31,112 nt of DNA from the IMG/VR virus record IMGVR_UViG_3300023176_002229, positions 1 to 31,112 of that record; one strand, written 5' to 3'. Under the pieces are notes generated by a model. It saw only the letters and a list, made by a program, of their open reading frames with translations. It searched no databases and was not told where the DNA came from. This document shows positions 1,140 to 22,265 of this stretch, piece by piece; the first letter of the stretch is position 1, and each line of letters starts with the position of its first letter. Origin of the DNA: a virus. The position numbers and the translations under genes are program-made.

Positions 1140-2948
1140 CTATTTTTCTAAAAACGAATGGTTAAAGTCAAATATTAATTCATCTTGTTTATTATTCTGT
1201 AAATCAACGGCTTCGAACAGAAGGTTTTGCTTGGGCCATACCCTAAATCCAGTGCGAGATGTATTCATCTCTAACCTGATTGGTTCGTCTAGTCCAGTGG
1301 GCTGGCCTCCCGTCTCTATGTCACGTACTTTTCGAACGTGAAACTCAGTGATCCTGCGCTGAGAGTGGTCAGGGTGCTGAACCTTTCGATGGATTGTAAC
1401 GAAGCAGTCGGCTCGATTAACAAATTTGCCTCCACCTTCGGTGTCTTCTGCATACGGAGCTGTAGGTAATCCATCGTCTCCTTTGCGTCGTTGTGCCTCA
1501 CTGAAGGCGTGCATATTGAGCCAAACTGCTACGTTGTTCGCCGTAGAGAACGTAAGGAACTCAGATGCAGCTTCGTAGTGATACTCGTGGCTACTCTTGT
1601 TTGTGGTGCCCATATCAAGCTTTAGGCTGTTGTAAGGATCTACAAAAACAGCGTCCACTTCTTGTTGGCGAAGAATCTTCTCAAGGAATACGATAATGTC
1701 TCCGTAACTGTACACCTGTTTGTTGCTAATGACTGTGAAGTGCTCGCTTACCCATTCATATGCCTTCTTGCGCTCCATATGGTTCATAGAAGTCACATTC
1801 TTGTTCATGGCAAACTGAATGAGAGTCTTCTTCAGAGCAGCTGTTCGATTCTCAGAGGAGTATACCACCCATTTCCATCCGTGACGAATAGCAGCGTTGA
1901 CCATGAGGTACAGCACCATAGTAGTTTTACCTACGTTACTATGACCATTGATAATAGTGAACTCTTTCTTATACCGAAAGAACTCGTCCATATTGGAGTC
2001 GCCTGTGTTTAAGCCTACCTCTATGTTTCCATTAGCGTAGTCGTCAATCCATCGGAAGTCCTCGTCATCTGAGGATATGAATGACATATCTCCATCGTTG
2101 ATAGCCATCTCACGACGCATCTTGTTCTCTTCGTCCATGGTCTCATGGATGGGGCGTAACTTGCCGTGCTCGATGCCGTCCTTGATAGTGCGAAGCGTTT
2201 GCACTTCGTCGTCTATATCACGCTTCATTATTTCCCTCGTAAGGATCCGAATAGCTTCGTCCTCTTCCGCTCTCCCAGCAGCTATCAAGCCTCCGCAAAA
2301 CTTAGCAGCTCGCAATAGAGTGTTGTGCTTATCGCCGTCGTCGCACAATCTAATAAGACGTGAAGCGATATTCATTTTTTGGTAATCTGTGTAGACTCCT
2401 GCTTTGGATACAGCTACCTGAGACTCCGATTTCTCGGTTGCCATAGCTCCGAATACGGCGGAATCTTCGTTGACCACAATCTCTGGGTCATAAGATTCAA
2501 AACATGCGCGTGACTCGTTGATTCCTGATTCGTCTACTTCAAGATCGTACTGCTTGTGAAAGTACGTGCGTAGCGCACGGAAGTGGTCTCGGTGGCGTTC
2601 AGGATTACTTACCTTAACAAGCGCCTTAAGTCCGTCGCCACTCGGAGATACCCAGCAGCTATAGACATAAGGATCCGTGGATAGAATCGCCTTGGATGAA
2701 GCAACATCAACGTGATCGAAGTCGAGTACAATGAATTGGCTGTGACGCGCAAGAGCCTCGTCGTTACGTGCTTCAAATTCCCCTGAGAAGAGGACGATAG
2801 GTAGGGTTTTCTTAAACTCTTTGCTTCCATTGCGAATTGTTTCAACCTTGATGGCAGAGTCTCCGTTTTTTATTCTTTTTAAAGCTTTCGCTATCGGCAT
2901 GTGATAAGCCTCCTTCGAGTACAGAGTCTCGAACATTGTTACTCTCAT
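1140..2948 (-). CDS. BT4734/VirE-N primase-like domain fused to RecA/DnaB-type helicase ATPase
   Basis: The 602-aa fusion has two parts. Residues 1-160 match the BT4734-like/VirE N-terminal fold (FETLYSKE, FSGEF, FIVLDFDHVD with D76 and D78, SPSGDGLK at 101-108), a family related to archaeo-eukaryotic PrimPol primases; D76/D78 would be the metal-binding pair. Residues 325-570 form a RecA-like ATPase with Walker A GHSNVGKTT (335-343), a SSEN strand with E366, and Walker B VFVDPYN (D437), as in DnaB-like replicative helicases. The expected role is primer synthesis and unwinding at the phage fork. I kept the first ATG because the residues after it fit the family's usual N-terminus, although this gives a 107-bp overlap with the DUF3310 gene. 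Confidence 0.87.
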   Translation of the reverse strand: MRVTMFETLYSKEAYHMPIAKALKRIKNGDSAIKVETIRNGSKEFKKTLPIVLFSGEFEARNDEALARHSQFIVLDFDHVDVASSKAILSTDPYVYSCWVSPSGDGLKALVKVSNPERHRDHFRALRTYFHKQYDLEVDESGINESRACFESYDPEIVVNEDSAVFGAMATEKSESQVAVSKAGVYTDYQKMNIASRLIRLCDDGDKHNTLLRAAKFCGGLIAAGRAEEDEAIRILTREIMKRDIDDEVQTLRTIKDGIEHGKLRPIHETMDEENKMRREMAINDGDMSFISSDDEDFRWIDDYANGNIEVGLNTGDSNMDEFFRYKKEFTIINGHSNVGKTTMVLYLMVNAAIRHGWKWVVYSSENRTAALKKTLIQFAMNKNVTSMNHMERKKAYEWVSEHFTVISNKQVYSYGDIIVFLEKILRQQEVDAVFVDPYNSLKLDMGTTNKSSHEYHYEAASEFLTFSTANNVAVWLNMHAFSEAQRRKGDDGLPTAPYAEDTEGGGKFVNRADCFVTIHRKVQHPDHSQRRITEFHVRKVRDIETGGQPTGLDEPIRLEMNTSRTGFRVWPKQNLLFEAVDLQNNKQDELIFDFNHSFLEK

Positions 2949-4935: not shown

Positions 4936-5492
4936 TACCGAACGAACTTTTGCAGTCCAGCAATCTGACCCGCAGTAAGAGAGTCCTCGTACTTAGCCAT
5001 GATGTTCTCGAAAGCTTTCTTCTTGTTTGTCTGCGACTTGATGTAAGCGACAGCCTTGTCCATAATGTTTACGGGCGGCTCGGTATCGAAGACCTCTTGA
5101 ACCTTCTTAATCTTTGCGGAGTTGTCGCTGTCTTCTTGCTTTGCGATTGCGTCTTGGACTTCATTAGCTGACGCAATAGACGTGTCGATTCCGATTCCAA
5201 GCATAGCAAGAGCTCGCCCGATTGCTGATGTTTCGCAATTCTCAACGTAGCTGGTCTTGTTGATGTTGGATGAACCTTGCACCTCGTGTGCATGTCCAGT
5301 GGCAATAACACGTCCAGTAGCATCTGCGATGGTTGTTTTACATACGCACTGCTCTGAGTCAAGTACGGTGAATTCGGACATGATTGTCCAGTCTTTGTAT
5401 TGATCTTCCTGACGGAAGAACTTGATACGTTCGTTAACTTCGACATACTGCTTACCCCGAATGTTGGTTGTTTTGAATTTGTAATTACTCAT
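4935..5492 (-). CDS. Putative single-strand annealing / ssDNA-binding recombinase (Rad52/Erf-like)
   Basis: The 185-aa protein has a central segment ATGHAHEVQGSSNINKTSYV followed by ENCETSAIGRALAMLGIG (84-101) and DTSIASANEVQDAI. The E-x-x-ETSAIGRALA-x-LGIG pattern is common in phage proteins placed in the Rad52/Erf/Sak-like annealing group, which coat single strands and pair complementary DNA. The C-terminal third (IKKVQEVFDTEPP ... IAGLQKFVR) is charged and may bind DNA or partners. The close RecE-like exonuclease supports a two-component recombination system. An ssDNA-binding protein without strand-annealing activity is the main alternative. It overlaps the upstream DnaA-like gene by 4 bp. 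Confidence 0.7.
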   Translation of the reverse strand: MSNYKFKTTNIRGKQYVEVNERIKFFRQEDQYKDWTIMSEFTVLDSEQCVCKTTIADATGRVIATGHAHEVQGSSNINKTSYVENCETSAIGRALAMLGIGIDTSIASANEVQDAIAKQEDSDNSAKIKKVQEVFDTEPPVNIMDKAVAYIKSQTNKKKAFENIMAKYEDSLTAGQIAGLQKFVR

Positions 5493-5866
5493 TGTAATAA
5501 AGGATTTGAATTTTCAATTAGATTTCTTTCTAGTCGTTTTAGTCTGTTTATTTCTAGCCTGACGGTCTTAAGCTTTGCTTGACGTGATTTGTACCTGAGT
5601 GTCTTGCAGTGCTTCTTTGCGATCTCAAACATTTTCGCATAGCCCTTCCAATACACCATGTTAGCATCGTGCTTCTTGCAGTGATGCACTACGCTAGAGT
5701 GGTCCATATCGAACAGCTTACCGATAGCTGTGGTCGTAGTGTATTGGCGTAATGCCACCATCACGGCGGCTCGTGCTTGGACTTGTTCTTTCATTCTTGT
5801 TCTGCTGGGTGTTAATCCAAGCTCTAAATAGTATCCCGCTAATAGGGACTTCATTTCTGAATTCAT
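5489..5866 (-). CDS. DnaA domain IV-like DNA-binding protein
   Basis: The product resembles the DnaA C-terminal DNA-binding domain: TRMKEQVQARAAVMVALRQY, then TTTTAIGKLFDMDHSSVVHH (residues 44-62 if the ATG at 5866 is used). The DHSSVVHH block is the family signature that reads DnaA boxes. There is no AAA+ domain, so it cannot be a full initiator. It may bind the phage origin, recruit or block host DnaA, or act as a repressor. A long basic helix (RYKSRQAKLKTVRLEINRLK) follows. The frame is open to 5923, but a -33/-7 promoter occupies 5868-5898, so the start is at 5866 or, more likely, at the in-frame ATG ending at 5854, 14 nt after the -7 box. Confidence 0.8.
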   Translation of the reverse strand: MNSEMKSLLAGYYLELGLTPSRTRMKEQVQARAAVMVALRQYTTTTAIGKLFDMDHSSVVHHCKKHDANMVYWKGYAKMFEIAKKHCKTLRYKSRQAKLKTVRLEINRLKRLERNLIENSNPLLQ

Positions 5867-5867
5867 G

Positions 5868-5898
5868 CAAATGTAGGTTTTAATTGTGATTAATGCAA
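5868..5898 (-). promoter_or_regulatory. Bacteroidetes promoter (-33 TTG, 20-nt spacer, -7 TACATTTG)
   Basis: On the minus strand TTG (5896-5898) is separated by exactly 20 nt from TACATTTG (5868-5875). This matches the Bacteroidetes primary promoter. It should drive the DnaA-like, annealing and exonuclease genes. The box is only 1 nt from the ATG at 5866, which argues for the second ATG at 5854. Confidence 0.7.
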
Positions 5899-5979
5899 GG
5901 AAAAGAGAGACTTTGTTTCTCATAGCTTTCTAACAGGCTAGTTACGGGCTCTCCCCGCACACCATACGTCTCTCCCCTG

Positions 5980-6330
5980 TCAGCGTTCTGACAAATCCTT
6001 TTCGTATTTTTTTAGCCGTTCGTAAAATTTTACATAGAACATTGACGATAGCGGAACTAAGCATAAGCCCTCGAACATCTTGCCAGTTTCTGAGCCAAGG
6101 GTGTCTTTATTCCTGGTGTAACCTGACCACTCCTCTACTATTTGTGCAGCGAGTTCAGAGAACTGAGACAGATACGACGATACGTCGCTGTTTAGCCAGT
6201 TGTCTATGTCGTTTTCCAGTATGTCTTCGCATACATAACTGTATGCTAGCTCTAAAGGCGGGTTTCTAGGTTCACCTTTTTGGAAGGCTACAACTTCGGA
6301 TATGTGTTTAATCGCTTCTTCGTTAGTCAT
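5980..6330 (-). CDS. Hypothetical protein, 116 aa
   Basis: The family is not recognised. The product starts MTNEEAIKHISEVVAFQKG, is acidic and mostly helical in appearance (EDILENDIDNWLNSDVSSYL, SELAAQIVEEW) and ends with a basic helix (FYERLKKYEKDLSER). There is one Cys in the middle and one near the end, and no signal peptide. It is the first gene after the non-coding stretch 6331-6590 and is followed by a 56-bp GC-rich gap containing GTCAG/CTGAC and two GGGGAGAG copies on the minus strand. The function is unknown. Confidence 0.75.
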   Translation of the reverse strand: MTNEEAIKHISEVVAFQKGEPRNPPLELAYSYVCEDILENDIDNWLNSDVSSYLSQFSELAAQIVEEWSGYTRNKDTLGSETGKMFEGLCLVPLSSMFYVKFYERLKKYEKDLSER

Positions 6331-6590
6331 TGGTTTTTAATTGATTATCTTTGGTTAAGAAAGGGAGACAGCCAATGCCTGCTGCCCCCCTCTCCGTGAT
6401 CGTATTGCTGTCTTTCCAGCTGTCAGTCTTTAACATCCATAGCCGCATGACGGGGACTTACGCATGACGCACGGCTTTGCCCTGACTGTGTGATAACCAT
6501 CATGACACACAGGGTTTGAATTCGGGTGGATGCTCGGTAACTCCTCCGACAAGAGCTGAGGTACAATAGCGTCATACGCCCCTGATGCTT
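6331..6590. other. Non-coding, structured region; candidate ncRNA #1
   Basis: No convincing protein frame is found on either strand in 260 bp. Inverted repeats nest into a multi-branch fold: CATCCA (6434-6439) pairs with TGGATG (6527-6532); inside it AGCCG (6441-6445) pairs with CGGCT (6472-6476), and CTGTGTG (6486-6492) with CACACAG (6506-6512). The 9-mer CGCATGACG occurs twice (6444-6452, 6461-6469). At the left end GGAGA+CAGC (6364-6372) pairs with GCTG ... TCTCC (6381-6395), followed leftward by CTTTCTT, like a weak terminator for leftward transcripts. A plus-strand TATCTTTG (6346-6353) could instead drive a rightward RNA. The direction is undecided. Confidence 0.5.
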
Positions 6591-6848
6591 TTAGTACGGC
6601 ACAGCATCTACAATCTCAAGATTGTATTTCTTGCTGTAGTACTTGGCTGTTTCCCACGCCCATTCGAAGTCTGGCTCCCATTCATCAAGGACGACTTCGT
6701 TTGTGTCGTTGTCGATTACGAGTACGTTCATGCCGTCGTTCATTCCGAAGGCTTTGTGTACTATCTCGATTTCTACACGGCAGTCGTCGTGGATGAGGTG
6801 TTCGTTTGGGTGTGCTTTCACTGCTTGTTTCCGTTTGTTAAAAACCAT
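6591..6848 (-). CDS. Hypothetical protein, 85 aa
   Basis: The product begins MVFNKRKQAVKAHPNEHLI and contains beta-like stretches (RVEIEIVHKAFG, NVLVIDNDTNEVVLDEW), then an aromatic, acidic segment (EPDFEWAWETAKYYSKKYN). The family is not recognised, although the layout resembles small single-domain accessory proteins of marine phages. It is the last gene before the non-coding stretch 6331-6590 and follows the 6861 gene by 12 bp. No export signal is seen. Confidence 0.75.
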   Translation of the reverse strand: MVFNKRKQAVKAHPNEHLIHDDCRVEIEIVHKAFGMNDGMNVLVIDNDTNEVVLDEWEPDFEWAWETAKYYSKKYNLEIVDAVPY

Positions 6849-6860
6849 GATAAGTGTTTG

Positions 6861-7262
6861 TTAATCCAGTTGGCAGTCGCATCCAGTTGCACTTCCAACC
6901 ACAATAAGAGTTCTGTCATCTGTAATAATTAATGGGAAGGTTTCTTCGTTAACTATGTTGTCGTTCTCGTCAGTCCAATTAGGGTTGTTACGTGGGTTGA
7001 ATCGTACACGGTAATCACCGAAGTTTCCTTTCTGTTCCCACGGGTCTCCGAACGACAAGTCTTCACACTCCACCCAGGCACACACTGTCTTGCATGCACC
7101 GTCGTGGATTTTAGTTGATGTACCTAACTGCACACGCAACTTAGCATTGAACATGGCAAGTTGAACATCGTCAGGACTAATGTACTGTGTGCCTGTGTCG
7201 CTCTTGATTTGCCACTTCATAAAGTTTTCTCCTCTTGCGAGGTGGAATCGAATTTTATACAT
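6861..7262 (-). CDS. Hypothetical phage protein, 133 aa
   Basis: The protein begins MYKIRFHLARGENFMKWQIKS and continues through Asp/Asn-rich strands with four Cys (DGACKTVCAWVECED, ATGCDCQLD). The function is unknown. Two starts compete. The ATG at 7262 gives the YKIRFHL strand, which reads as a natural beginning, but overlaps the 55-aa upstream gene by 46 bp. The ATG at 7220 (MKWQIKS) makes an ATGA junction with that gene's stop, the coupling pattern used throughout this arm. I list the longer form. The C-terminal CDC pair might bind metal together with the earlier Cys residues. Confidence 0.72.
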   Translation of the reverse strand: MYKIRFHLARGENFMKWQIKSDTGTQYISPDDVQLAMFNAKLRVQLGTSTKIHDGACKTVCAWVECEDLSFGDPWEQKGNFGDYRVRFNPRNNPNWTDENDNIVNEETFPLIITDDRTLIVVGSATGCDCQLD

Positions 7263-7384
7263 GCTTCTTGAATTTGTCTAAAGTAATTTTTTCTTGCTGT
7301 GCTGTGGATGTGTTGCGCCCAGTCATTGAAGTCCTTCGCGGGGGCTTCGTTCGCGCTTGATCGTATGCATATTGGTTTGCTCAT
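7217..7384 (-). CDS. Small hypothetical protein, 55 aa
   Basis: The frame starts at ATG 7382-7384, whose A is the last base of the upstream gene's TAA (TAATG junction), and stops at a TGA (7217-7219) that overlaps the in-frame ATG at 7218-7220 of the next gene. The peptide begins MSKPICIRSSANEAPAK and continues DFNDWAQHIHSTARKNYF, soluble and mildly basic. These overlaps on both sides make coding likely despite the short length. It overlaps the longer form of the 6861 gene by 46 bp. No family is recognised. Confidence 0.5.
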   Translation of the reverse strand: MSKPICIRSSANEAPAKDFNDWAQHIHSTARKNYFRQIQEACIKFDSTSQEEKTL

Positions 7385-7881
7385 TACGCTTCTTTCACGA
7401 TTTCGAGTGCCCCCCAGAACAAACTGAACTTTGACATACGGGTTGAACTAGGTTTCACTTGCTTGGCTACTACGGTAGGAGCTGACGCTTTATTGGTGCT
7501 GACCTTGGACCGACTGCGAGGCTTGGGGTTTACGATACGGTCGACCGAGGACGGACTTACACCTACATGCTTGGCTATAAACCTGTGGGTTTCACCCTGC
7601 TTCTTGAGCTTTAATACCTTTGATTTCTGGGCTTCTGTGATTCTTCGTTGTTGATTTTTCATTTCAGTTGATTTAGTTTCTTGTTGTTCTGTTTCTTGTT
7701 GTTCTGTTTTTTCTAGTCCGAGTAAAGCTTCTCGGGTTGTACCTATAAGGTAGCAAACTTGATCGAGTGTAATTCCTTCTGTGCTGGCTATATGGTCTGC
7801 GGAGTTGCCCGCCATAAGCCGTCTGCGAACCTTTACACTTAGCTTTTCTTCTACTGGAGTGTATTTAAATTCTTTTTTCAT
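7384..7881 (-). CDS. Helix-turn-helix DNA-binding protein, 165 aa
   Basis: Residues about 80-117 (RRITEAQKSKVLKLKKQGET, then HRFIAKHVGVSPSSVDRIV) form a resolvase/Hin-type helix-turn-helix. Residues 13-55 (KLSVKVRRRLMAGNSADHIA, then TLDQVCYLIGTTREALLGL) look like a second helical DNA-binding unit. The linker has a tandem TEQQE repeat that matches a duplicated 15-bp unit in the DNA (about 7675-7710), a likely replication-slip region. The C-terminal third is basic, Ser/Lys-rich and ends SKFSLFWGALEIVKEA. There is no catalytic serine-recombinase domain, so a transcription regulator is the best guess, perhaps acting on the repeated early promoters. Confidence 0.75.
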   Translation of the reverse strand: MKKEFKYTPVEEKLSVKVRRRLMAGNSADHIASTEGITLDQVCYLIGTTREALLGLEKTEQQETEQQETKSTEMKNQQRRITEAQKSKVLKLKKQGETHRFIAKHVGVSPSSVDRIVNPKPRSRSKVSTNKASAPTVVAKQVKPSSTRMSKFSLFWGALEIVKEA

Positions 7882-7907
7882 TGTTATTTCATTTCATCGA
7901 ATATACA

Positions 7908-8084
7908 CTAGCGTCTTCCCCATTGTTTGCTTCTTGGTTCTTCATCGAATACGACCATGCTGTCCTCTTCGGACGGTGTGTTGCGCACAATAGTCTGTGC
8001 TTGTTCTCGTGTGAGTCCATCCATCAGGACTTTGGGTCGCTTGTTCCAGTCGCGGAAGATGCGGTATACTGCGTAGTTACTCAT
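7908..8084 (-). CDS. Small conserved-type phage protein, 58 aa
   Basis: The frame is open to 8195, but the ATG at 8082-8084 (MSNYAVYRIFRDWNKRPKVL) overlaps the upstream stop by 8 bp and gives a natural start; the longer version adds a low-complexity Ser/His-rich segment that overlaps the upstream gene in another frame. The sequence pattern YRIFRDWNKRPKVLMDGLTR, then EQAQTIV ... SMVVFDE resembles small phage proteins with an 'R-x-V-x-GLT-x-EEAQ' core. Its role is unknown. It ends in a basic tail (RSKQWGRR). Confidence 0.7.
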   Translation of the reverse strand: MSNYAVYRIFRDWNKRPKVLMDGLTREQAQTIVRNTPSEEDSMVVFDEEPRSKQWGRR

Positions 8085-8289
8085 TGATGTTAGGGTTTTG
8101 CTCGATGAATTCATCGAAGATGATACGTGCCTTGCCTCGTGCATAGGCATCTTGTTGTGAGAGAGTACCAGTCCTCTGTGGTGTAGGTAGGTCACCGATG
8201 CTGAAGTTGTCAGTGACGTAGCCTGATGCGCCGTTCTGTATACAGAAAGCGATGTTGCGGATGTGTTCTTCTTTACGTTGTGGTGTCAT
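8077..8289 (-). CDS. Hypothetical protein, 70 aa
   Basis: The product begins MTPQRKEEHIRNIAFCIQNG and has two helical stretches (KEEHIRNIAFCIQNG and AYARGKARIIFDEFIEQN) separated by a Gly/Pro/Thr-rich loop (GDLPTPQRTGTLSQQ). It is packed 2 bp after the 8292-8447 gene and overlaps the next gene by 8 bp. The family is not recognised. There is no membrane segment. Confidence 0.72.
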   Translation of the reverse strand: MTPQRKEEHIRNIAFCIQNGASGYVTDNFSIGDLPTPQRTGTLSQQDAYARGKARIIFDEFIEQNPNINE

Positions 8290-8291
8290 GA

Positions 8292-8447
8292 TTAAAAGTT
8301 TTTGTGCAGGTAGCCTGAGAGCATTAACTGCTGGTTTACGTTTGATGTTGGTGTCTTAAGGATTTTACGTACACCCTTGTCCTCTGATGCAATCACGGGA
8401 TCGATGTTGTACTCCTCGCATATGAAGATGAAATCATTTACATTCAT
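8292..8447 (-). CDS. Small hypothetical protein, 51 aa
   Basis: The ATG at 8445-8447 overlaps the TGA of the upstream gene in an ATGA junction, and the stop TAA is at 8292-8294, two bases before the next ATG. The peptide is MNVNDFIFICEEYNIDPVIA ... RKILKTPTSNVNQQLMLSGY, a short alpha-helical protein with a hydrophobic/acidic N-terminal half. Its tight fit between two genes and the coupled start support a real gene. The function is unknown. Confidence 0.65.
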   Translation of the reverse strand: MNVNDFIFICEEYNIDPVIASEDKGVRKILKTPTSNVNQQLMLSGYLHKNF

Positions 8448-8950
8448 GATGTTAAGTCTTTTGATTTAGGGATTTTGAAATAGTAGATGCATAGGTCGTC
8501 AGCATCGAACATAGCGTCTCCGTTGTACCATAGGTCGCGGATAAACTCGTGGAGTGCATCGACGCTGAAGGTCTCATCAACAGATTCCATACGCTCACAC
8601 AGGTCTTTGACTACACCCATGTCGCTTGGTAGATACTCACCATCGAATGGAGCTTCGCAGTCCATCTGATTCCAGATGAGGTACTCTCGTCGTGATTGCG
8701 AATCGAACATAGGTTCGTAAGGGATAATTTTTAGAATCTCTTGCTCGCACTCACGGTCTGTGTAGGTGATAATGTCCTGCGTCCCGTCTGTGGAGCTTTC
8801 AACTAGCTCGTGAGGGAGGGTCATGAGCGAGGCAAGTAGCTCGCCCTTGTGATGCTGGGCATCATCCATGGTCTTGAACCATCTGACTGTGGTGTCGGAG
8901 TAACCCTCGGCTAGTCCACATACACCGTGTAATAATGCATAGTATTTCAT
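8444..8950 (-). CDS. Hypothetical protein, 168 aa
   Basis: The acidic protein begins MKYYALLHGVCGLAEGYSDT and is rich in Asp, Glu and aromatic residues (EQEILKIIPYEPMFDS, LHEFIRDLWYNGDAMFDADD). The family is not recognised. It is the first gene behind an early promoter/leader module (8951-9008) with leader sequence TTCTAACAC directly before the ATG, so it should be expressed early together with the four genes to its left. No signal peptide, Cys cluster or catalytic motif is visible. Confidence 0.75.
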   Translation of the reverse strand: MKYYALLHGVCGLAEGYSDTTVRWFKTMDDAQHHKGELLASLMTLPHELVESSTDGTQDIITYTDRECEQEILKIIPYEPMFDSQSRREYLIWNQMDCEAPFDGEYLPSDMGVVKDLCERMESVDETFSVDALHEFIRDLWYNGDAMFDADDLCIYYFKIPKSKDLTS

Positions 8951-9008
8951 GTGTTAGAATTTTTGAATTGTTCGACAAAGATACGATGAGGAATCCATTT
9001 ATCCAAAT
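8951..9008 (-). promoter_or_regulatory. Early promoter/leader module, copy 1
   Basis: On the minus strand: AAAATAAATTTGG with -33 TTTG (9004-9007), exactly 20 nt, -7 TATCTTTG (8976-8983), then a leader ending AAAATTCTAACAC and the ATG at 8950. The same arrangement recurs at 10491-10566 and 12640-12715. It contains no Shine-Dalgarno; the A/T-rich leader fits Bacteroidetes translation initiation. Confidence 0.8.
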
Positions 9009-9233
9009 TTATTTTGCAACTGACTGAAAATCAATCCATTGAAACAGCAAGTCACTTGCTTGTTTCAACTCCTTTCGCAGTTCAGGTGAGTCGTTCTCCA
9101 TGACCAAGGGGCACCACGAATCAAACTTTAGCTTCTGTGCTTGACGCTCTATCTGCTCGATCGTTCGCGAAGCCATGTAATCGAGTACTTCTTGCGGGAT
9201 TTGCTTCCCTATGTGTTGTTCAAATTTCGTCAT
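9009..9233 (-). CDS. Hypothetical protein, 74 aa
   Basis: The frame is open to 9287, but I choose the ATG at 9231-9233 (MTKFEQHIGKQIPQEVLDYM), which overlaps the upstream stop by 14 bp and avoids a 68-bp overlap. The product is helical and charged (SRTIEQIERQAQKLKFDS, SPELRKELKQASDLLFQW). No family is recognised. It is the last gene of a co-translated cluster that ends just before promoter module copy 1; its stop lies next to the module's AAAATAAATTTGG box. Confidence 0.7.
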   Translation of the reverse strand: MTKFEQHIGKQIPQEVLDYMASRTIEQIERQAQKLKFDSWCPLVMENDSPELRKELKQASDLLFQWIDFQSVAK

Positions 9234-9543
9234 TATTCTGTTCTTTAAATCGTCCCATAAATTCTGAGTGCATAGCATTGATAGCATCTGCTACTTTCTG
9301 CTTGCCACCCTTAAGCCCGAAGTATGCTTTCACGTCTCCGATTTTCCATCCACGATGGGGCTTGAGTCCGTGGAGGTAGAGGTTTACGTCGCGCCGTGTA
9401 ACCATGAGGTTGTACAGGCATCGGGGTACATCACGACCTTGAATCTTTATCGTTGGTCGGTCTTCGTCGTGTAGCTCCACCCAGAATGGAGCGGATGCAT
9501 CTACATCCTGCATGAAGGCTTGGGCTTCTTTATCTGTCATCAT
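9220..9543 (-). CDS. Conserved-type phage protein, 107 aa
   Basis: The product begins MMTDKEAQAFMQDVDASAPF and contains the block RCLYNLMVTRRDVNLYLHGL followed by KPHRGWKIGDVKAYFGLKG, resembling a small helical domain often seen in Bacteroidetes phage early regions. Its function is unknown; the basic helix could bind nucleic acid. The first ATG shares its A with the TAA of the 50-aa upstream gene (TAATG), so that start is preferred over the second ATG one codon later. Confidence 0.75.
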   Translation of the reverse strand: MMTDKEAQAFMQDVDASAPFWVELHDEDRPTIKIQGRDVPRCLYNLMVTRRDVNLYLHGLKPHRGWKIGDVKAYFGLKGGKQKVADAINAMHSEFMGRFKEQNNDEI

Positions 9544-9695
9544 TATAGTCGGGGTAAAAAGTGTTCGTCATTAGCCAAGATTCCTGCAATGTCATGCAGG
9601 AGATCGATGGCACGGATGTGTGTGTCAGTGTCGTTGGCTGTGTTTGCCACACGCTCTGCCCACTGATGGAAGATTTCGAATTGTTCGGGTGTCAT
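9543..9695 (-). CDS. Small hypothetical protein, 50 aa
   Basis: The frame begins at ATG 9693-9695, sharing one base with the upstream TAA (TAATG), and ends in a TAA (9543-9545) that shares one base with the next ATG. The peptide is MTPEQFEIFHQWAERVANTA, then NDTDTHIRAIDLLHDIAGIL ... FLPRL, a typical soluble helical hairpin. Double TAATG coupling makes coding very likely. The function is unknown. Confidence 0.65.
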   Translation of the reverse strand: MTPEQFEIFHQWAERVANTANDTDTHIRAIDLLHDIAGILANDEHFLPRL

Positions 9696-9853
9696 TAGTT
9701 AGGGTCATTAAGGTTCATTGCGTTGTCGAAGTCACGCACGATTTCGATAGGTACGTGGTAGTAGTCACCTGTTACAGGGTCTCTCCATGTTTCGGTCTCA
9801 CCTGCATAGGTTTCCTCGCAGTATTCGAGGCGGTCAATAATTGATTTGTCCAT
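9695..9853 (-). CDS. Small hypothetical protein, 52 aa
   Basis: The frame begins at ATG 9851-9853, directly after the conserved early leader TTCAAAATTCTAACAC, and ends in a TAA that forms a TAATG junction with the next gene. The product, MDKSIIDRLEYCEETYAGET, then ETWRDPVTGDYYHVPIEIVR ... NLNDPN, is acidic. The leader copy here lacks a -7 box, so its mRNA must come from further right, across the structured RNA region. The family is not recognised. Confidence 0.65.
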   Translation of the reverse strand: MDKSIIDRLEYCEETYAGETETWRDPVTGDYYHVPIEIVRDFDNAMNLNDPN

Positions 9854-9877
9854 GTGTTAGAATTTTGAATTAGTAAA

Positions 9878-10122
9878 AAAGGGCGGAGTTTAGGTTTCTC
9901 TCCCATCGGTGCAAGCCTCATGATTCCATAGCTTACACCACAGGTAATGGTCTTCCTGGTGATTTGTAACACCGCCCATTGTAGCAAGCCGAGGATTCGA
10001 ACCTCGCTGACGTCTCGCATTTGTACGCCTTGCACCCCCCGACGGGGACTCGCTATGTATGAGCCGTAAGCACGCCAAACAGCTTACGTTTGCAGTAGTT
10101 GATTTAGCCTAACTACGCTCAT
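9878..10122 (-). ncRNA. Candidate structured ncRNA #2 with tRNA-like T arm and terminator-like 3' end
   Basis: No protein frame is credible in 9854-10133. On the minus strand there are three successive folded domains. A (10122-10059): ATGAGC/GCTCAT closes a junction of two hairpins, GTAGTT/AACTAC and CGTAAGC/GCTTACG. B (10054-9983): AGCGAGT pairs with GCTTGCT (two G-U) around CCCC-GTC-GGGG and a T arm CGAGG-TTCGAAT-CCTCG (10006-9990); its overall length is that of a tRNA, but no proper D or anticodon arm forms. C (9977-9881): GGGCGG/CCGCCC closes ACCAGG/CCT-GGT and GTGTAAGC/GCTTGCAC (8 bp, one G-U), then a T6 tract like an intrinsic terminator. The function is unknown; it may be a degenerate tRNA, a tRNA mimic or a regulatory RNA. 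Confidence 0.5.
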
Positions 10123-10133
10123 GATGAATGTGT

Positions 10134-10490
10134 TTATTCCAAGAAGTCATCGACCGCTCTTGAAACATCTAATCGTCGACTCACATCAAGCCCGCAAGCT
10201 TTACCCATCTTCTTGGCAAACCATTGGTGGAACTGCTTCTCTTCATCCCCGAAGCATCCATACGTCTGGTTACGTAGGGTGACTCGGTTGCCGTTTTCAT
10301 CGTAGGCTACGAGGAACGCAACCGTACTGCACTCACCTGTCGATGAGTTGATTTGGTGACGGTATTCGATAGCCACGGGTATGTTATTCGTGGTGGTAGT
10401 CATCACTGAGTCGTTACGCTCAGGAGTCATGCCAGTGACGATGAGTTTATCCCAAGAGTTGAGGAAGTCGGTAAGTGTAGGTAATGCCAT
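10134..10490 (-). CDS. Hypothetical protein, 118 aa
   Basis: The product begins MALPTLTDFLNSWDKLIVTG and ends with a short tandem repeat LDVSR-RLDVSR before AVDDFLE. The middle has beta-like segments (IPVAIEYRHQINSS, CSTVAFLVAYDENGNRVTL) and a CFGDEEKQFHQWFAKKMG helix. The family is not recognised. It is the first gene behind promoter/leader module copy 2 (leader TCTAACAC before the ATG) and lies directly upstream of the structured RNA region, so its transcript would continue into that RNA. Confidence 0.75.
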   Translation of the reverse strand: MALPTLTDFLNSWDKLIVTGMTPERNDSVMTTTTNNIPVAIEYRHQINSSTGECSTVAFLVAYDENGNRVTLRNQTYGCFGDEEKQFHQWFAKKMGKACGLDVSRRLDVSRAVDDFLE

Positions 10491-10566
10491 GTGTTAGAGA
10501 TTTTGATTTTGTCGTTGTTGACACTGCAAAGATAAGGCAGAGTTTTCGATTTTCCAAATTTATTTT
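10491..10566 (-). promoter_or_regulatory. Early promoter/leader module, copy 2
   Basis: On the minus strand: AAAATAAATTTGG with -33 TTTG (10555-10558), 20-nt spacer, -7 TATCTTTG (10527-10534), then CAGTGTCAAC and a leader ending ATCTCTAACAC before the ATG at 10490. Box sequences and spacing equal those of copies 1 and 3. Confidence 0.8.
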
Positions 10567-10824
10567 CTAAGTCGCTGATTGTAAGTCAGTTAGAACTCCA
10601 TCGACTTGGTGAGAATAGCACCAATGTCCATCATCTAATGTGAGTACGTAGTTGTCGTGCATACTCACCTCGTCTACCTCCTGTCCATACTTCTCGCTTG
10701 GATGGTAGGTGCGCTCGATGGCTTCTACGCCTGCGGTCTTCTGCGGGTCGCGACCGAACCCGCCTCGGTATACCACCCGTGTACCTACACGGATGAGTCG
10801 TTCATTTGTGAATTTTGTTTTCAT
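10567..10824 (-). CDS. Conserved-type small phage protein, 85 aa
   Basis: The protein begins MKTKFTNERLIRVGTRVVYR and has an SH3-like or beta-barrel look: GTRVVYRGGFGRDPQKTAGV, then VSMHDNYVLTLDDGHWCYSH and QVDGVLTDL. Small phage proteins with a 'G-T-R-V-x-Y ... L-D-D-x-H-W-C-Y-S' layout are common in early regions, with no known function. It sits at the end of a cluster that closes before promoter module copy 2, and follows the 10827 gene by 2 bp. Confidence 0.78.
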   Translation of the reverse strand: MKTKFTNERLIRVGTRVVYRGGFGRDPQKTAGVEAIERTYHPSEKYGQEVDEVSMHDNYVLTLDDGHWCYSHQVDGVLTDLQSAT

Positions 10825-10826
10825 TT

Positions 10827-11021
10827 TTATCTCCAGTTATTTTCATCTTTCCAAATCCATACTTCGTCAATTACGTGCCCTTTCTCACGCTCCATGTACG
10901 CTATGTGGTTGTTCATGTGTTCTTCGTCGTTGAACTTGCGGGTATACCCCCACCCGCTGGGCTTGCCACGCATCACGTCTCCTTTGTATGCGCTCTGAAA
11001 TTGTAGTGTTGCTTTAATCAT
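10827..11021 (-). CDS. Hypothetical protein, 64 aa
   Basis: The product, MIKATLQFQSAYKGDVMRGK ... SGWGYTRKFNDEEHMNNHIA ... VWIWKDENNWR, has an N-terminal strand and a central helix that is rich in His and Met. The family is not recognised. It overlaps the 11014 gene by 8 bp and ends 2 bp before the next ATG, consistent with operon packing. It is aromatic-rich at its C-terminus. Confidence 0.72.
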   Translation of the reverse strand: MIKATLQFQSAYKGDVMRGKPSGWGYTRKFNDEEHMNNHIAYMEREKGHVIDEVWIWKDENNWR

Positions 11022-11301
11022 TTTCCTTCAGGTATTCGTCTATGATTTGGTAGGCTGTTTTGTTGTCGTTCAGGTACTCGTCACGATGCCCTGACCAGTA
11101 CGCGGCATTGCGTAGCGTTTCCACGCCGCTGTTGAACTTGGGCTTCGGGGTCAGGTCAAACCGTGTGCCCTTGAAGGCATCTTCGAGGATTCTTGTGTTG
11201 CCATTATCGGCTTTCAAGTATGCGTCGATCAGCGCCTGCTCGAAGCCGCCCGCTATTTTGCGCCGTTCGTACAGCGCGTCAATGTGTTGTTGTGTTTTCA
11301 T
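11014..11301 (-). CDS. Hypothetical protein, 95 aa
   Basis: The product begins MKTQQHIDALYERRKIAGGF and is a soluble, charged, largely helical protein (EQALIDAYLKADNGNTRILE ... KTAYQIIDEYLKEND). No motif is recognised. It shares a 4-bp overlap (11298-11301) with the upstream gene and an 8-bp overlap with the downstream gene, so translation is probably coupled across the three. Confidence 0.74.
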   Translation of the reverse strand: MKTQQHIDALYERRKIAGGFEQALIDAYLKADNGNTRILEDAFKGTRFDLTPKPKFNSGVETLRNAAYWSGHRDEYLNDNKTAYQIIDEYLKEND

Positions 11302-11687
11302 TTTACAAAGATTTCTTTTTGGTTTTCAAGGTCGTAGATAGCCCGCTCCCCGCGCTTCTTAGCGAGTGCAAGTGCTTCCTGTTCGTCATCGAGGACGTTG
11401 CACAAATCGAAGACAATCTTGCTGTCTTCAACCCACGTACCTATGACCACTGCAGAATCGCGCTCCAGAGCCAACTCAGCTTGATGGAACAAGCGGTTAT
11501 ACGTGTGCTTGAAAGCCGATTCGTTGTCCATCTTGCAGGACTCTTCGGGTACGATTCCGCCCACTACATACCCACACTTAGGTACATAGAATTCGCCGTT
11601 GTCCATGATTCCGATTGAGGAACCTCCAGTCAGCATTGTGCTACCGTATGCGAAGCACATAGCTTCGTCGAAAGAAAAGTTTTTCAT
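11298..11687 (-). CDS. Hypothetical protein, 129 aa
   Basis: The product begins MKNFSFDEAMCFAYGSTMLT and contains Gly-rich turns (GGSSIGIMDNGEFYVPKCGY, VVGGIVPEESC) followed by a helical, acidic half (FKHTYNRLFHQAELALERDS, DDEQEALALAKKRGERAIYD). The family is not recognised. It overlaps the next gene by 4 bp. Its upstream leader (AAAATCTTTTTTCT before the ATG) is A/T-rich but is not the conserved early leader. No export signal is seen. Confidence 0.74.
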   Translation of the reverse strand: MKNFSFDEAMCFAYGSTMLTGGSSIGIMDNGEFYVPKCGYVVGGIVPEESCKMDNESAFKHTYNRLFHQAELALERDSAVVIGTWVEDSKIVFDLCNVLDDEQEALALAKKRGERAIYDLENQKEIFVK

Positions 11688-11707
11688 AGAAAAAAGATTT
11701 TAAAAGT

Positions 11708-11857
11708 TTAACCGTTTTCGTCTTCGTCAGAGCCATCCTCCTCAAGCGTAGTCATGGACGTTTGCTCGTCTCCGTTCGTAGAGGTGTCGTCTTGTATGTT
11801 TTGGCTCAGGCTCACAACAGTGATTGTAAGAGCGCAAAAGAGCATGAATGGTTTCAT
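11708..11857 (-). CDS. Small exported acidic protein, 49 aa
   Basis: The frame starts at ATG 11855-11857 behind a copy of the early leader (CAAAATTTCTACAC) and stops at 11708-11710. The product has a signal peptide-like N-terminus, MKPFMLFCALTITVVSLSQ, followed by a very acidic, Thr/Ser-rich tail (NIQDDTSTNGDEQTSM, LEEDGSDEDENG). This suggests a peptide exported to the periplasm; a Cys at position 8 is too early for a usual lipobox. It lies beside another exported-type gene (11933-12286). Surface or periplasmic early proteins sometimes block superinfection, but this is speculation. Confidence 0.6.
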   Translation of the reverse strand: MKPFMLFCALTITVVSLSQNIQDDTSTNGDEQTSMTTLEEDGSDEDENG

Positions 11858-11884
11858 GTGTAGAAATTTTGATAGTTGACACTG

Positions 11885-11900
11885 ACACCCCGAAGGGTGT
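11885..11900 (-). other. Stable hairpin with UUCG tetraloop between two exported-protein genes
   Basis: On the leftward transcript ACACCC-UUCG-GGGUGU forms a 6-bp stem closed by the very stable C(UUCG)G tetraloop. It lies after the stop of the 11933 gene and before the leader of the 49-aa gene. There is no U tract behind it, so an mRNA stability or processing element is more likely than a terminator. Confidence 0.5.
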
Positions 11901-11932
11901 TTCGCCTATGCAAGGCTCATCAGAGTGCCTGA

Positions 11933-12286
11933 TTACTCGTCTGTATCCAACCAGTTTGGATAAGGAAATCCAGCTTTCGTGAGCTTGTATACACACGGAG
12001 TTCCACGCTTGGTGGTGTACACGGTGCGACCCTCGAACGTCTCGTCAGTTGGGGTAAAAACCCAAACAGCGTACTCGTTCCCAGTTCGCGGGGAGGTAGC
12101 TTTGACGAATTTAGAACCACCTTCGGTGGTGAAAACAGGAAATTCTATTCCGTCTACGCTCAGAGCCTCGTTCGTCTCTATGCCTGAGTTCACGTCGTAA
12201 CCGCCTCTGCCAGTCATGGCATCAGGCATTTGACCAAAAGTTGTGGATGCGACAGCAATCGCAAGGGTGAAAAATAGATTTTTCAT
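11933..12286 (-). CDS. Exported hypothetical protein, 117 aa
   Basis: The N-terminus MKNLFFTLAIAVASTTFGQ is a clear Sec-type signal peptide (basic residue, hydrophobic core, FGQ end). The mature part is about 98 residues with beta-like stretches (ALSVDGIEFPVFTTEGGSKF, EYAVWVFTPTDETFEGRTVY) and one Cys. No family is recognised. An early phage gene with export signal may act on the host envelope, for instance by altering receptors or uptake; this is inference. It follows the 26-aa hydrophobic peptide frame by 12 bp. Confidence 0.72.
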   Translation of the reverse strand: MKNLFFTLAIAVASTTFGQMPDAMTGRGGYDVNSGIETNEALSVDGIEFPVFTTEGGSKFVKATSPRTGNEYAVWVFTPTDETFEGRTVYTTKRGTPCVYKLTKAGFPYPNWLDTDE

Positions 12287-12733: not shown

Positions 12734-12988
12734 TTAATCGATGACATGGTACATTTCCCATGTAGGAGCGTCATCATCCCAGCGCACCACCGTGTGCGAC
12801 TCGCACGCTGGCTCGAACACGTAGTCCGAGGACGGCACGCGCTTGAAGTAGCAGTAATCATCGCCCTCCTTGAGGATGATTTCGACAGCCCAGTTCGCGG
12901 CTTGCAGGGCGTCTGCGAAGTTGCGCTTACAGCGAAACTCGCCTCCTCCCTCGAACGGGAAGACAAAAGCAAAAATTGGTTGTGACAT
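12734..12988 (-). CDS. Hypothetical protein, 84 aa
   Basis: The frame is open to 13075, but upstream codons overlap the 13026 gene and include its hairpins, so I use the ATG at 12986-12988 (MSQPIFAFVFPFEGGGEFRC). The product shows FPFEGGGEFRCKRNFADALQ, then AANWAVEIILKEGDDYCYFK and an acidic C-terminus (RWDDDAPTWEMYHVID). A central helix carrying ADALQAANWAVE is visible. No family is recognised. It lies 37 bp downstream of the hairpin-rich gene and could share its transcript. Confidence 0.74.
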   Translation of the reverse strand: MSQPIFAFVFPFEGGGEFRCKRNFADALQAANWAVEIILKEGDDYCYFKRVPSSDYVFEPACESHTVVRWDDDAPTWEMYHVID

Positions 12989-13025
12989 AAATCTTTGATT
13001 TATAGGATTTAACATTAAACTTCGT

Positions 13026-13739
13026 TTAAACTGCTGGGGCAAAAGATGGCTCCAACATTGGATTGCCAGAGGCAATCAACGCCTCTGCCTCCAGTCGCTC
13101 TCGCTCCAGCACTGCACTGCGGTGCCGAGCCATAGCTTCCTCTGGAGACTCTCCTGGAAGGAGAGTCAACTTCATCTTAGCTTTCTTTCGAACCTTCGGT
13201 TCGACTACCTGAACCTCTTTACGAGGTTCAAAAGGTTGAGCCTCACCACCGTCAACTGCGTTGACGACTTTTGTCTTGATAGCCTTGCCAACTTTGTTGG
13301 CAGTAGCAGTCTTAGCTTGAGTTAACTCAAGCCCAGCAGCTGACGACCTCTTAGGTCGTCGAACAGTCTTCTTGTTCTTCTTCGAAGAACGAGCAGCAGC
13401 TCTCTCCTCTTGGAGGAGAGCATGAAGCTCTTTGTTCAGAGCGGAACGCTCTGCTCTCTTGAGCTTCTTACCAGAGGTAAGAACAGCCTCAATCTCAGCC
13501 TTTCGGCTGGACTTCGAGGACTTTACTGCCTTCGAAGCCTTTGGCTTCTTAGCTGACTTCGAAGCCTTTGGCTTCGTCTCAGACTCCGATGGAGTCTCGA
13601 TGGCTTCGATGAAAGCCGACAACGAAGCTAAAGCTTCGAGAGTAGACTGCTTCTTAGAAGCAGAAGGGTTGAACACAAAGCTGTTAACAGCTTTCTTAGT
13701 TGCTTTCAGCAACTCGGAGTGATTGATGTTGTTGTTCAT
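13026..13739 (-). CDS. Lys/Ser/Ala-rich protein encoded by a hairpin-packed gene, 237 aa
   Basis: The protein has an N-terminal ordinary-looking part (MNNNINHSELLKATKKAVNS ... LEALASLSAFIEAIE), then about 150 residues of low complexity rich in Lys, Ser, Ala, Arg and Glu (e.g. KPKASKSAKKPKASKAVKSS), like histone H1 tails or DNA-condensing proteins, and a helical, Glu/Arg/Ala-rich C-terminus. It is the promoter-proximal gene of the left arm. Its DNA holds about 20 perfect short inverted repeats covering over half of the frame. The amino acid choice may be a by-product of the palindromes. Whether the product is a DNA-binding protein or the RNA/DNA structure is the functional part cannot be decided here. 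Confidence 0.7.
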   Translation of the reverse strand: MNNNINHSELLKATKKAVNSFVFNPSASKKQSTLEALASLSAFIEAIETPSESETKPKASKSAKKPKASKAVKSSKSSRKAEIEAVLTSGKKLKRAERSALNKELHALLQEERAAARSSKKNKKTVRRPKRSSAAGLELTQAKTATANKVGKAIKTKVVNAVDGGEAQPFEPRKEVQVVEPKVRKKAKMKLTLLPGESPEEAMARHRSAVLERERLEAEALIASGNPMLEPSFAPAV

Positions 13740-13755
13740 CAGTTGTTAGATATTA

Positions 13756-13799
13756 AGATTAGAATAAGAATTCACAGAATTCCATTCTTATTCTAATCT
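13756..13799. repeat. 16-bp perfect inverted repeat in the leader of the hairpin-rich gene
   Basis: AGATTAGAATAAGAAT (13756-13771) and its exact complement (13784-13799) flank 12 nt that themselves contain two GAATTC sites 3 nt apart. On the leftward mRNA this forms a long AT-rich stem 17 nt before the ATG at 13739. It could protect the mRNA, control ribosome entry or bind a dimeric repressor. Confidence 0.85.
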
Positions 13800-13929
13800 A
13801 TATCTACTTTCTCCAATTCCTGCGGTTAGCTTTGCTAACTCATGCGATTGGTAGCCAACCAATACGATCATCGTAGATGATTCCTGCGCGGTTGGAAGTG
13901 AGCCATCGGATTTGAGGGTGAGTGAATTT

Positions 13930-13949
13930 GGGGAGGGGAGGGGGAGGGG
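13930..13949 (+). other. G-quadruplex motif, four G tracts with 1-nt loops
   Basis: Four runs of G (4, 4, 5 and 4) separated by single A residues lie on the plus strand. This is the classical pattern for a very stable parallel quadruplex. It is in the non-transcribed strand for leftward transcription, within the divergent control region, in an otherwise AT-rich genome. Confidence 0.8.
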
Positions 13950-14241
13950 ATTGCGCCGCGCTCGCATTGAGCTTGTTACAAGCTTTACTTCATCCAGTTT
14001 CTAACCAAGCCACTCAATCGCTCTGACTATCAGTTACTTAACTGATGTCAGCTCTAGCTTCGTAGAAGCTAAGATTGTGCCCATTAGCTTTGAAAAAGCT
14101 AAAAATCTGGTCAAAACCGCGCAAACTTCGTTCCCACGGGGTTTTTAGGGTCAATTTCGGGTTTTGCGACCAAACGCTGGTAAGTGTGTAGAATCCCCAC
14201 GATCTGTATGACAACCCCATTTTTTAAAGCGTACTTACTCA

Positions 14242-14249
14242 CAAAGATA
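14242..14249 (-). promoter_or_regulatory. Leftward Bacteroidetes -7 element (TATCTTTG)
   Basis: On the minus strand TATCTTTG would start transcription near 14235, about 500 nt before the hairpin-rich gene, giving a long hairpin-filled leader. No -33 TTG is found at 20 nt. It overlaps the DnaA-box-like ATATCCACA at 14247-14255. Confidence 0.5.
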
Positions 14250-14501
14250 TCCACAAACCTCCATCTCATTATGGTTAACATGCTGTTACATAGAAGCTTA
14301 TGGTTACTCACTTAAAGCATTGCTTCAAACTTGACTTTTTAAAAAAAATGCTGTAACTTCGCCGAAGCTTTGTTAGCGATGATACTCCGAAGCTGTTCAT
14401 TAACGAAGAGCATTCTTTTAGGGTTGTATTGAAATACAACAGAAGCTCTTGAGCGTCAATCAAACTAATGATGCTGTGAAAGGCGCTAAGACTGTTTTTA
14501 T

Positions 14502-19316: not shown

Positions 19317-20064
19317 AAAGTCTGTTTGTTTTTTCATGGTGTACTATAAACGTCCTGAACTGACAAGGATGTCTTTTTGGCACATGGCTAAGGTTATAAA
19401 AAAATTTACCGAGGCTGGTCATGAATGCTGCGGCATTGTAATAGGCAACGAGCCAGAACAAGCTGAGTATTGCGAAAGCCTTGGGTTGGAGCACCTAGAG
19501 CACGGAAACGCTGATCTTTCTAAGAAGTTTGAGTTTGCTTGGCGCGAAGCGATGAAAAAAGAAACCAGCTATATATGCTGGCTTGGGAGTAATAACGTAA
19601 ACTCAGATGAGTTTTGGGACAAAGCATTAGAAAAAATAAACGGACAAGCCGTAGTTTCTTTTGGAACTAAGAACTTCACGATTGTCGATATAAACAAAGA
19701 GAATCAGAAGACCATGGCTTGGACCAGAAGAAGGTTTCATTTGTGTTCTTGCGGTCAGTTCTTCTACAGGTACACGCTAAACAAGACTGTAGACTTTTCT
19801 ACTGTATTTCAAAAGACCAAGAATAAAGAAGGTCGTACCGACTTTGATGGTAGCATGAATCACACTCTCGTAGGAAGATGGGGAGAAGAGTGTTTTGAGC
19901 CGCTAGAGTCCGACCCGCTAGACTGTATTGACGTTAAGTCAGACGTCGATATTCATCCTTTTAAAAGATACGAAACTGGAAGGTATCCTCAACACTACAC
20001 GAGAAATGAGATCTTCGAGAAGTTCGAAGAGTTGAAGATGCTGGAGGATGGCTACTTTAAATAA
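19300..20064 (+). CDS. Putative glycosyltransferase-like protein, 254 aa
   Basis: The first strand, SVCFFMVYYKRPELTRMSFW, looks like strand 1 of GT-A type glycosyltransferases, followed by a helix (HMAKVIKKFTEAGHECCGIV) and a second strand with IGNEPEQAEY. WLGSNNVNSDEFWDKAL (about 94-110) takes the place of the usual SDD loop, then RFHLCSCGQFFYRY and DFDGSMN. This layout resembles phage proteins placed near GT2 enzymes. It might modify virion proteins or host surface sugars. The catalytic DxD is not clear, so activity is uncertain. I use the GTG at 19300, since the ATG at 19336 would cut into the first strand. Confidence 0.6.
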   Translation: MGRGDKKSVCFFMVYYKRPELTRMSFWHMAKVIKKFTEAGHECCGIVIGNEPEQAEYCESLGLEHLEHGNADLSKKFEFAWREAMKKETSYICWLGSNNVNSDEFWDKALEKINGQAVVSFGTKNFTIVDINKENQKTMAWTRRRFHLCSCGQFFYRYTLNKTVDFSTVFQKTKNKEGRTDFDGSMNHTLVGRWGEECFEPLESDPLDCIDVKSDVDIHPFKRYETGRYPQHYTRNEIFEKFEELKMLEDGYFK

Positions 20065-20474
20065 TTGTAGAAACGCTGCACCGCTAGCCTACCTTTCTGC
20101 GACAGCGCATATCGAACTCTGTAATTGTATTTTGTTTCATCACGGAACAAATGATCCTCTAGAGTTTGAGACGGTGTAAGCTTATCAAAGTGCTTATAAA
20201 AATACCCAGAAGCAACCAGTGGGTATACCATTCTGTCTGCTAGGTTGCTTTTATTCATGCCGTAGTTCTCTGCTAACCACGAAATAGTAAAGAACTCCAG
20301 GTCGTAGACGAATAAAAGTAAGTACAGGTACGACTTTGTTAAGTCTGGGGTTGATTCTAAAAAGTCGTTTGTAGCGCCCCTCAAATTCTTTAGGTGGTTT
20401 TGCTTTACGTACTTGTCTGGAAGAACTGAAAAGTCTCGAAACAACCTTGTCTTTCTAACGGTGGACTTAGGCAT
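20052..20474 (-). CDS. Winged-helix (MarR-like) regulator, only leftward gene in the late arm
   Basis: The 140-aa protein begins MPKSTVRKTRLFRDFSVLPD. The central part, SYLYLLLFVYDLEFFTISWL then AENYGMNKSNLADRMVYPLV, fits a winged helix-turn-helix, with ASGYFYKHFDKLTPS as wing and YNYRVRYALSQKGRLAVQRF as final helix, as in MarR-type regulators. It is the only leftward gene within the rightward arm and overlaps the glycosyltransferase gene tail to tail by 13 bp. It is divergent from the 20515 gene with a 40-bp gap that contains a promoter, so it could regulate that promoter or itself. No dimerisation partner or ligand is evident. Confidence 0.72.
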   Translation of the reverse strand: MPKSTVRKTRLFRDFSVLPDKYVKQNHLKNLRGATNDFLESTPDLTKSYLYLLLFVYDLEFFTISWLAENYGMNKSNLADRMVYPLVASGYFYKHFDKLTPSQTLEDHLFRDETKYNYRVRYALSQKGRLAVQRFYNYLK

Positions 20475-22042: not shown

Positions 22043-22265
22043 TTACCCTTCTTCAATAGATTATTACAGCGATGAATGGACTCATGAATGGAGTAGTGGT
22101 GTGGATGGCACCGCACATTTTAACCCATGTAACACACCTAACCCACCGTGGTGGTGCGAAGAAAACGAGCCAGTCCCGATCGAACCGAACATTTTAATAA
22201 TTGTTGGAATGTTCACATATGGAGTCTTACTTTTGAAGAAATGCACCCGTAGCTCAGTTGGATAG
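22014..22265 (+). CDS. Membrane-anchored hypothetical protein whose C-terminus reads into a tRNA gene, 83 aa
   Basis: The product begins [20 protein letters not shown], has an aromatic and Pro-rich middle ([20 protein letters not shown]) and one hydrophobic segment ([17 protein letters not shown], residues 60-76). The final CTRSSVG and the stop codon are encoded by the 5' half of tRNA-Arg (22243-22265). The N-terminus overlaps the 21860 frame by 29 bp. A single C-terminal membrane helix could suit a holin or spanin-like protein, as none is found near the endolysin, but this is speculative. It may also be a truncated gene ended by the tRNA. Confidence 0.5.

Follow-up and report, generated by a model that had tools for sequence, protein, structure and literature searches.

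A dense array of short perfect hairpins across an early phage gene and its leader, with arms possibly kept identical by template switching

Introduction

How does a protein-coding gene come to carry a string of short, perfect inverted repeats that are unrelated in sequence, and what keeps their arms matched? The question is raised by an open reading frame (ORF) for a 237-aa protein in the 31.1-kb virus record IMGVR_UViG_3300023176_002229 of IMG/VR, whose whole length of 31,112 nt is referred to here as the window. A preliminary description of this ORF, made without database searches, had drawn attention to its hairpins and had offered several possible causes. We find about 30 perfect short hairpins in total in the gene and the non-coding stretch that precedes it, a region of about 1.1 kb. 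Judged from its sequence and that of its relatives, the array is most likely a DNA-level feature rather than a product of pairing in mRNA. We see about an even chance that template switching, at an origin-like junction of early and late genes, is what keeps the two arms of each hairpin identical.

A hairpin array spans the gene and its non-coding leader

The ORF carries 19 non-overlapping perfect hairpins with stems of 6-9 bp and loops of 3-5 nt, mostly 3 nt, that together cover 336 bases, or 51% of positions 13061-13714. The preliminary count of about 20 hairpins over more than half of this interval therefore holds, as does the statement that the stems are mutually unrelated in sequence. Hairpins with a stem of at least 6 bp and a loop of 3-5 nt, of which the ORF has 19, average 2 and never exceed 7 in 500 synonymous shuffles. 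For stems of at least 7 bp and loops of 3-6 nt, the 17 observed compare with 0.75 on average, and never more than 4, in 500 synonymous-codon shuffles, with 0.19 in codon-order shuffles and with 0.36 in dinucleotide shuffles. The codon-preserving shuffle suggested as a check thus leaves the excess far above expectation. The rest of the window has 13 stem-7 hairpins in 29.8 kb, compared with 17 in the 714-bp ORF.

The array had been thought confined to the gene, but it runs on into about 370 bp of non-coding leader and ends near position 14110. The non-coding interval 13741-14200 holds 8 hairpins where 0.43 are expected. A 60-bp inverted repeat adjoins the start codon on its upstream side, and its arms change together among relatives. 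One further hairpin lies downstream of the ORF and is retained in relatives with varying loops. The proposed spacing of about 30 bp survives as a density, hairpin centres being 35 bp apart on average (standard deviation 16). As a periodicity it was rejected, the variation in gap length being like that of random placement in 9 of the 10 sequences tested.

A mild excess of perfect hairpins is also seen elsewhere in the early region (positions 1-12000, outside the array), with 23 compared with about 7.6 in dinucleotide shuffles; in the late region they occur at chance level.

Relatives keep the array, with array-free exceptions

The locus is present in some 27 viral contigs. Protein searches found the gene in 20 further viral contigs, and searches with the terminase and the downstream gene, as well as with the primase-helicase, brought in relatives, the former including more distant ones. 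No relative of the ORF was found in phage records, by DNA or by protein, or in genome contigs. Scanned parts of MW202828, MT497072 and Maribacter phage Panino showed no hairpin clusters (at most 4 per 500 bp). Most relatives have 8-20 hairpins per ORF, compared with 0.8-2.3 in synonymous shuffles; one (L136) has only 5. In two contigs (L124 and L114) the protein can barely be aligned to that of the window, and the ORF is nonetheless hairpin-dense. A neighbouring, unrelated ORF is hairpin-dense as well in L124 (1306-1707, 7 hairpins) and in L137 (5681-5986, 5 hairpins).

The preliminary description had looked to related genes for a decision. Most of them do keep both the protein and the array, with compensated stems, but two contigs are exceptions. 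L077 and L081 retain the motifs of the leader and, at high similarity, the C-terminal half of the protein, and they encode similar residues, yet each has just 2 hairpins in its ORF, as many as chance would give. Because both are nested among array carriers in a terminase tree, they have likely lost the array or gained an array-free allele by recombination. On the evidence of these two sequences, the array is dispensable for the protein or for the existence of the locus. Nine of 29 contigs end within the array (or, in one case, have a scaffold gap there), compared with 3.7 expected (P = 0.007), which is consistent with local diversity or with poor sequencing through the hairpins.

The encoded protein constrains the array

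The 237-aa protein is rich in Lys, Ala and Ser, with helical segments linked by disordered K/P/A/S stretches. A structure model gives separate helices only (predicted template modelling score 0.23), and Pfam and PHROG hold no family for it. It had been suggested that such a low-complexity protein may be a by-product of the hairpins. However, hairpin loop centres fall at codon positions 1, 2 and 3 in 100, 44 and 13 cases, respectively, a reading-frame bias that places hairpins chiefly in the phases able to make use of wobble positions, and insertions and deletions among relatives are nearly always multiples of three. The suggestion is thus not supported, and for both reasons the protein is a real constraint.

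Hairpin arms change together and loops invert

Stem pairs in which both sides have changed are still Watson-Crick in 71% of cases in the ORF and 60% in the leader, compared with 18-32% for partners slid 1-3 columns out of register. In a 13-sequence alignment (A6), both-side changes occur in 23 pairs and 65 cells; shuffles give 12.0 pairs and 20.6 cells, and slid partners at most 11 pairs and 22 cells. At 8-13% divergence, double changes are 7-10 times as frequent as expected from independent change. For example, CGAAGC/GCTTCG is replaced by CGATGC/GCATCG or AAGGC/GCCTT around an identical TTTA loop, and GATTGCC/GGCAATC by GATTTCC/GGAAATC or GATTGCT/AGCAATC. One site bears three different hairpins in three clades (CGTCAAC GCA GTTGACG, CATCACC GAA GGTGATG and CTTGAC GGTA GTCAAG), and the amino acids differ there too. 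In an indel-rich segment near alignment column 480, a perfect hairpin of its own is present in almost every variant.

Stem length is narrowly bounded. The window's clade has 9.9 exact 7-bp stems per ORF (0.5 expected) and 4.9 of 8 bp (0.1 expected), the distribution peaks at 6 bp in other clades, and stems of at least 10 bp are absent from the ORFs examined. This size window could reflect selection for a fixed stability or the shortest hairpin able to support switching; either fits. Loops, in turn, are found inverted, that is, replaced by their exact reverse complement while the inner stem is unchanged. Eight types of such inversion occur among relatives, and close relatives provide examples (AAAT/ATTT in L004/L021 and CAAG/CTTG in L009/L010).

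The two strands fold alike

Selection for a folded early mRNA was one of the causes first proposed. In this explanation the first early transcript would be a string of hairpins serving stability, RNase protection or translation control. The array does coincide with the 5' leader and first ORF of what is probably one transcription unit, and the minimum free energy of the coding strand is low (z = -11), but the opposite strand folds equally well (z = -10.5). The mean difference between the coding strand and its complement is -2.6 kcal/mol in ORFs and -0.7 in leaders, unlike pieces of Escherichia coli rRNA of matched size (730 nt), in which the strands differ by -28 to -67 kcal/mol. Pairing in the array is strictly Watson-Crick: across 21 ORFs with 309 perfect hairpins, hairpins with one defect number 41 compared with 62 expected from synonymous shuffles, and those in which the defect is a G-U pair 10 compared with 10.6. 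On rRNA, the G-U hairpins in such a one-defect count are up only about two-fold, so that the count is a weak test by itself and the energy comparison weighs more. In aligned stem pairs of all relatives, G-U and A-C combinations occupy 295 and 226 cells in the ORF and 432 and 495 in the leader, respectively (11 and 38 in the outer flanks). Rfam searches gave no family for the array, the only match being a tRNA elsewhere. Since the strands fold alike, hairpins with G-U pairs are not enriched, and G-U is about as common as A-C over all relatives, selection on mRNA is disfavoured, and we regard it as a distinctly unlikely explanation of the array.

The array lies at an early/late junction

Early genes run leftward in the window and encode, among others, a primase-helicase with a BT4734-like domain, an exonuclease, a T7-endonuclease-I-like protein and a protein with a DnaA C-terminal domain. 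The late genes, including terminase and amidase, run rightward. The array sits where the two blocks diverge, and the ORF fits the earlier supposition of an early gene, being the first of its block and beside a possible origin. Of 25 relatives, 8 have one or two strict DnaA boxes upstream of the array, some 500-630 bp ahead of the start codon; a degenerate pair occupies this position in the window. Together with the phage-encoded DnaA-domain protein, these DnaA-like boxes make a replication origin at the junction plausible, and such an origin would explain why DNA here might often be single-stranded. DNA_pol_A was not found in related contigs. The putative -7 element of the leftward transcript reads TAnnTTTG in most relatives of the alignment, and a putative rightward promoter of the same type, also read from the alignment, lies just before position 14514.

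Between the divergent blocks, positions 14320-14390 (minus strand, alignment A4) contain a strongly conserved AACAGCTTCGAAG..ATCGCTAACA..GGCGAAGTTACAGC and, after it, 8-9 consecutive T; on the plus strand this element resembles a promoter (TTGAC..TAACTTCG).

The primase-helicase served to place the phage close to those of Bacteroidota; a majority of its matches are in phages of Flavobacteriia, and the named phages nearest to the terminase (41-48% identity) are an uncultured podovirus and the Flavobacterium elemo phages. The host is therefore probably a member of Bacteroidota. A tRNA gene (22243-22316, Rfam 74 bits) lies directly upstream of the terminase gene. The interval 20052-20471 (minus strand) weakly matches the Staphylococcus aureus uracil-DNA glycosylase inhibitor family SAUGI (E 4e-4), below the Pfam cut-off.

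Table 1. Features of the hairpin locus and of the surrounding window, with the contigs that break within the array.
Feature	Position	Strand	Remark
ORF, 237 aa	13026..13739	-	first gene of leftward block; 19 perfect hairpins
ORF hairpins 1-5	13061-13077, 13147-13167, 13188-13204, 13210-13230, 13250-13266		
ORF hairpins 6-10	13286-13302, 13315-13332, 13342-13360, 13374-13390, 13402-13420		
ORF hairpins 11-15	13437-13453, 13465-13483, 13534-13548, 13560-13576, 13581-13597		
ORF hairpins 16-19	13623-13638, 13647-13663, 13677-13694, 13698-13714		
Non-coding leader part of array	13740..14110		
Leader hairpins	13768-13782, 13825-13839, 13847-13863, 13867-13881, 13970-13984, 14029-14046, 14055-14071, 14084-14102		
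Long imperfect inverted repeat	13747..13806		arms of about 25 nt around GAATTC TGT GAATTC
Hairpin ATAAATC(TTT)GATTTAT	12987..13003		downstream of ORF, immediately before start of next leftward gene
Degenerate DnaA-box-like pair	14235..14255	-	TGTGGATAT (14255-14247), TGTGAGTAA (14243-14235)
Putative Bacteroidota-type -7 promoter element, leftward transcript	14461..14468	-	TTAGTTTG; inferred assignment
Primase-helicase, BT4734-like N-terminal domain	1140..2948	-	
Phage gene with DnaA C-terminal DNA-binding domain (PF08299)	5489..5923	-	may act together with the origin
Contigs ending or gapped inside array			L006, L011, L014, L017, L018, L019, L021, L022, L099

Discussion

In yeast genes, template switching leaves a recognizable signature: the arms of an inverted repeat are homogenised and its spacer is inverted, with amino-acid replacements as a result (PMC8604942). 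Perfect arms, joint changes of both arms and inverted loops are this published signature (PMC8604942), and we infer that template switching is the main force maintaining the arms here, in line with the earlier suggestion of DNA hairpins perfected in this way. The roughly 30 inverted repeats would snap into hairpins whenever the DNA of the locus, probably often, becomes single-stranded, and a polymerase or repair process would then copy one arm from the other. Such copying would keep complementarity perfect, carry changes from arm to arm and sometimes invert the loop. In the coding part, hairpins would be able to survive only if wobble positions and a tolerant protein, rich in Lys, Ala and Ser, leave room for them. 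Selection may also favour the hairpins, for example in initiation or protein binding, since stem lengths are sharply bounded and different clades carry different hairpins at the same sites.

Several observations count against this account. Among leader loop pairs, 19 types differ by at least two bases and are not inversions; a single hypervariable site accounts for 14 of these. In yeast, spacer inversions were seen only where arms exceed 9 bp (PMC8604942), a limit that arms of 6-9 bp do not reach, although it is an observation in one organism and not a definition. The DnaA boxes are strict in only the 8 relatives mentioned and degenerate in the window. Finally, G-U exceeds A-C in the nearest clade (7-8 pairs compared with 1-2 for several reference sequences, in small numbers and related sequences), the outcome expected of selection on RNA, and RNA pairing may therefore contribute.

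One alternative to template switching is a selected DNA structure, in which hairpins are recognised or used in single-stranded DNA and selection for stability, not conversion, keeps the arms perfect. Lagging-strand start sites, binding sites for phage proteins, or blocks to nucleases, helicase, RecA or SSB are conceivable roles. The lower and upper limits on stem length, the clade-specific hairpins at one place, the new hairpin in nearly every variant of the indel-rich segment and the adjoining DnaA-like boxes would all suit it. However, L077 and L081 do without the array, the one-mismatch intermediates expected from selection alone are not in excess, and the stems offer no common sequence for a protein to read; we consider this explanation possible but unlikely. 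A more novel reading, likewise possible but unlikely, is an undescribed phage DNA element in which tens of sequence-unrelated 6-9 bp hairpins are required or used in single-stranded origin DNA, lie over a coding gene, and are inherited as geometry rather than as sequence.

Two further explanations fare far worse. Promoters of the phage N4 kind, read by an RNA polymerase injected from the virion, would share the 3-nt loop that predominates in the array, but about 30 unrelated stems with varied loops have no common motif. An RNA_pol search also gave no match in seven related contigs, although its control was silent too, leaving its sensitivity undemonstrated, and a giant 3,694-aa protein of a distant relative matches DUF3293 only. 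We regard this origin of the hairpins as very improbable. That the array follows from codon or amino-acid composition, or arose by chance, is scarcely credible: K-P-K-A repeats in the low-complexity protein can indeed yield GAAGCC AAA GGCTTC, but synonymous and codon-order shuffles contradict this source, the array extends into non-coding DNA, and the similar residues of L077 and L081 come without hairpins.

The locus shows with unusual clarity how, in nature, the geometry of inverted repeats and not their sequence is preserved across a coding gene. Should template switching be what maintains the array, the locus is a hotspot for measuring how hairpin arms evolve in concert, and it cautions against taking covariation alone as proof of a functional RNA structure. 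Were the hairpins in use, the array would count as a phage origin or early-region element of a new type.

Comparison with known systems

Chloroplast DNA contains minute inversions in the loops of hairpins, which flip between relatives. Loop flipping is shared with the array, but the chloroplast cases are scattered in non-coding organelle DNA and not packed into a phage gene. In phage N4, the virion RNA polymerase uses short hairpins of DNA, each with a 3-nt loop, as its promoters. Like single-strand initiation hairpins, which often have such loops too, they act in early phage or plasmid DNA; these elements, however, are few and sequence-specific, whereas the stems of the array are numerous and unrelated. 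Large structured RNAs of phages and bacteria, ROOL and GOLLD among them, likewise show dense covarying stems in phage genomes. Unlike them, the array has no Rfam match and no strand asymmetry, overlaps an ORF and consists of purely local stems.

The yeast events share homogenised arms and inverted spacers with the array, but are single and scattered and form neither an array nor a conserved locus (PMC8604942). Mitochondrial genes of Nematomorpha contain palindromes in their coding sequence, and template switching has been proposed as the means by which these are converted (PMC6649704). There, too, perfect repeats lie in real coding sequence while imperfect ones are not in excess, certain reading-frame phases are favoured, and repeats are gained and lost between relatives (PMC6649704). 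The nematomorph arms, however, reach 284 bp and are scattered over many mitochondrial genes (PMC6649704), whereas the phage array consists of arms of 6-9 bp, tens of them in about 1.1 kb, at a single locus that includes a non-coding leader.
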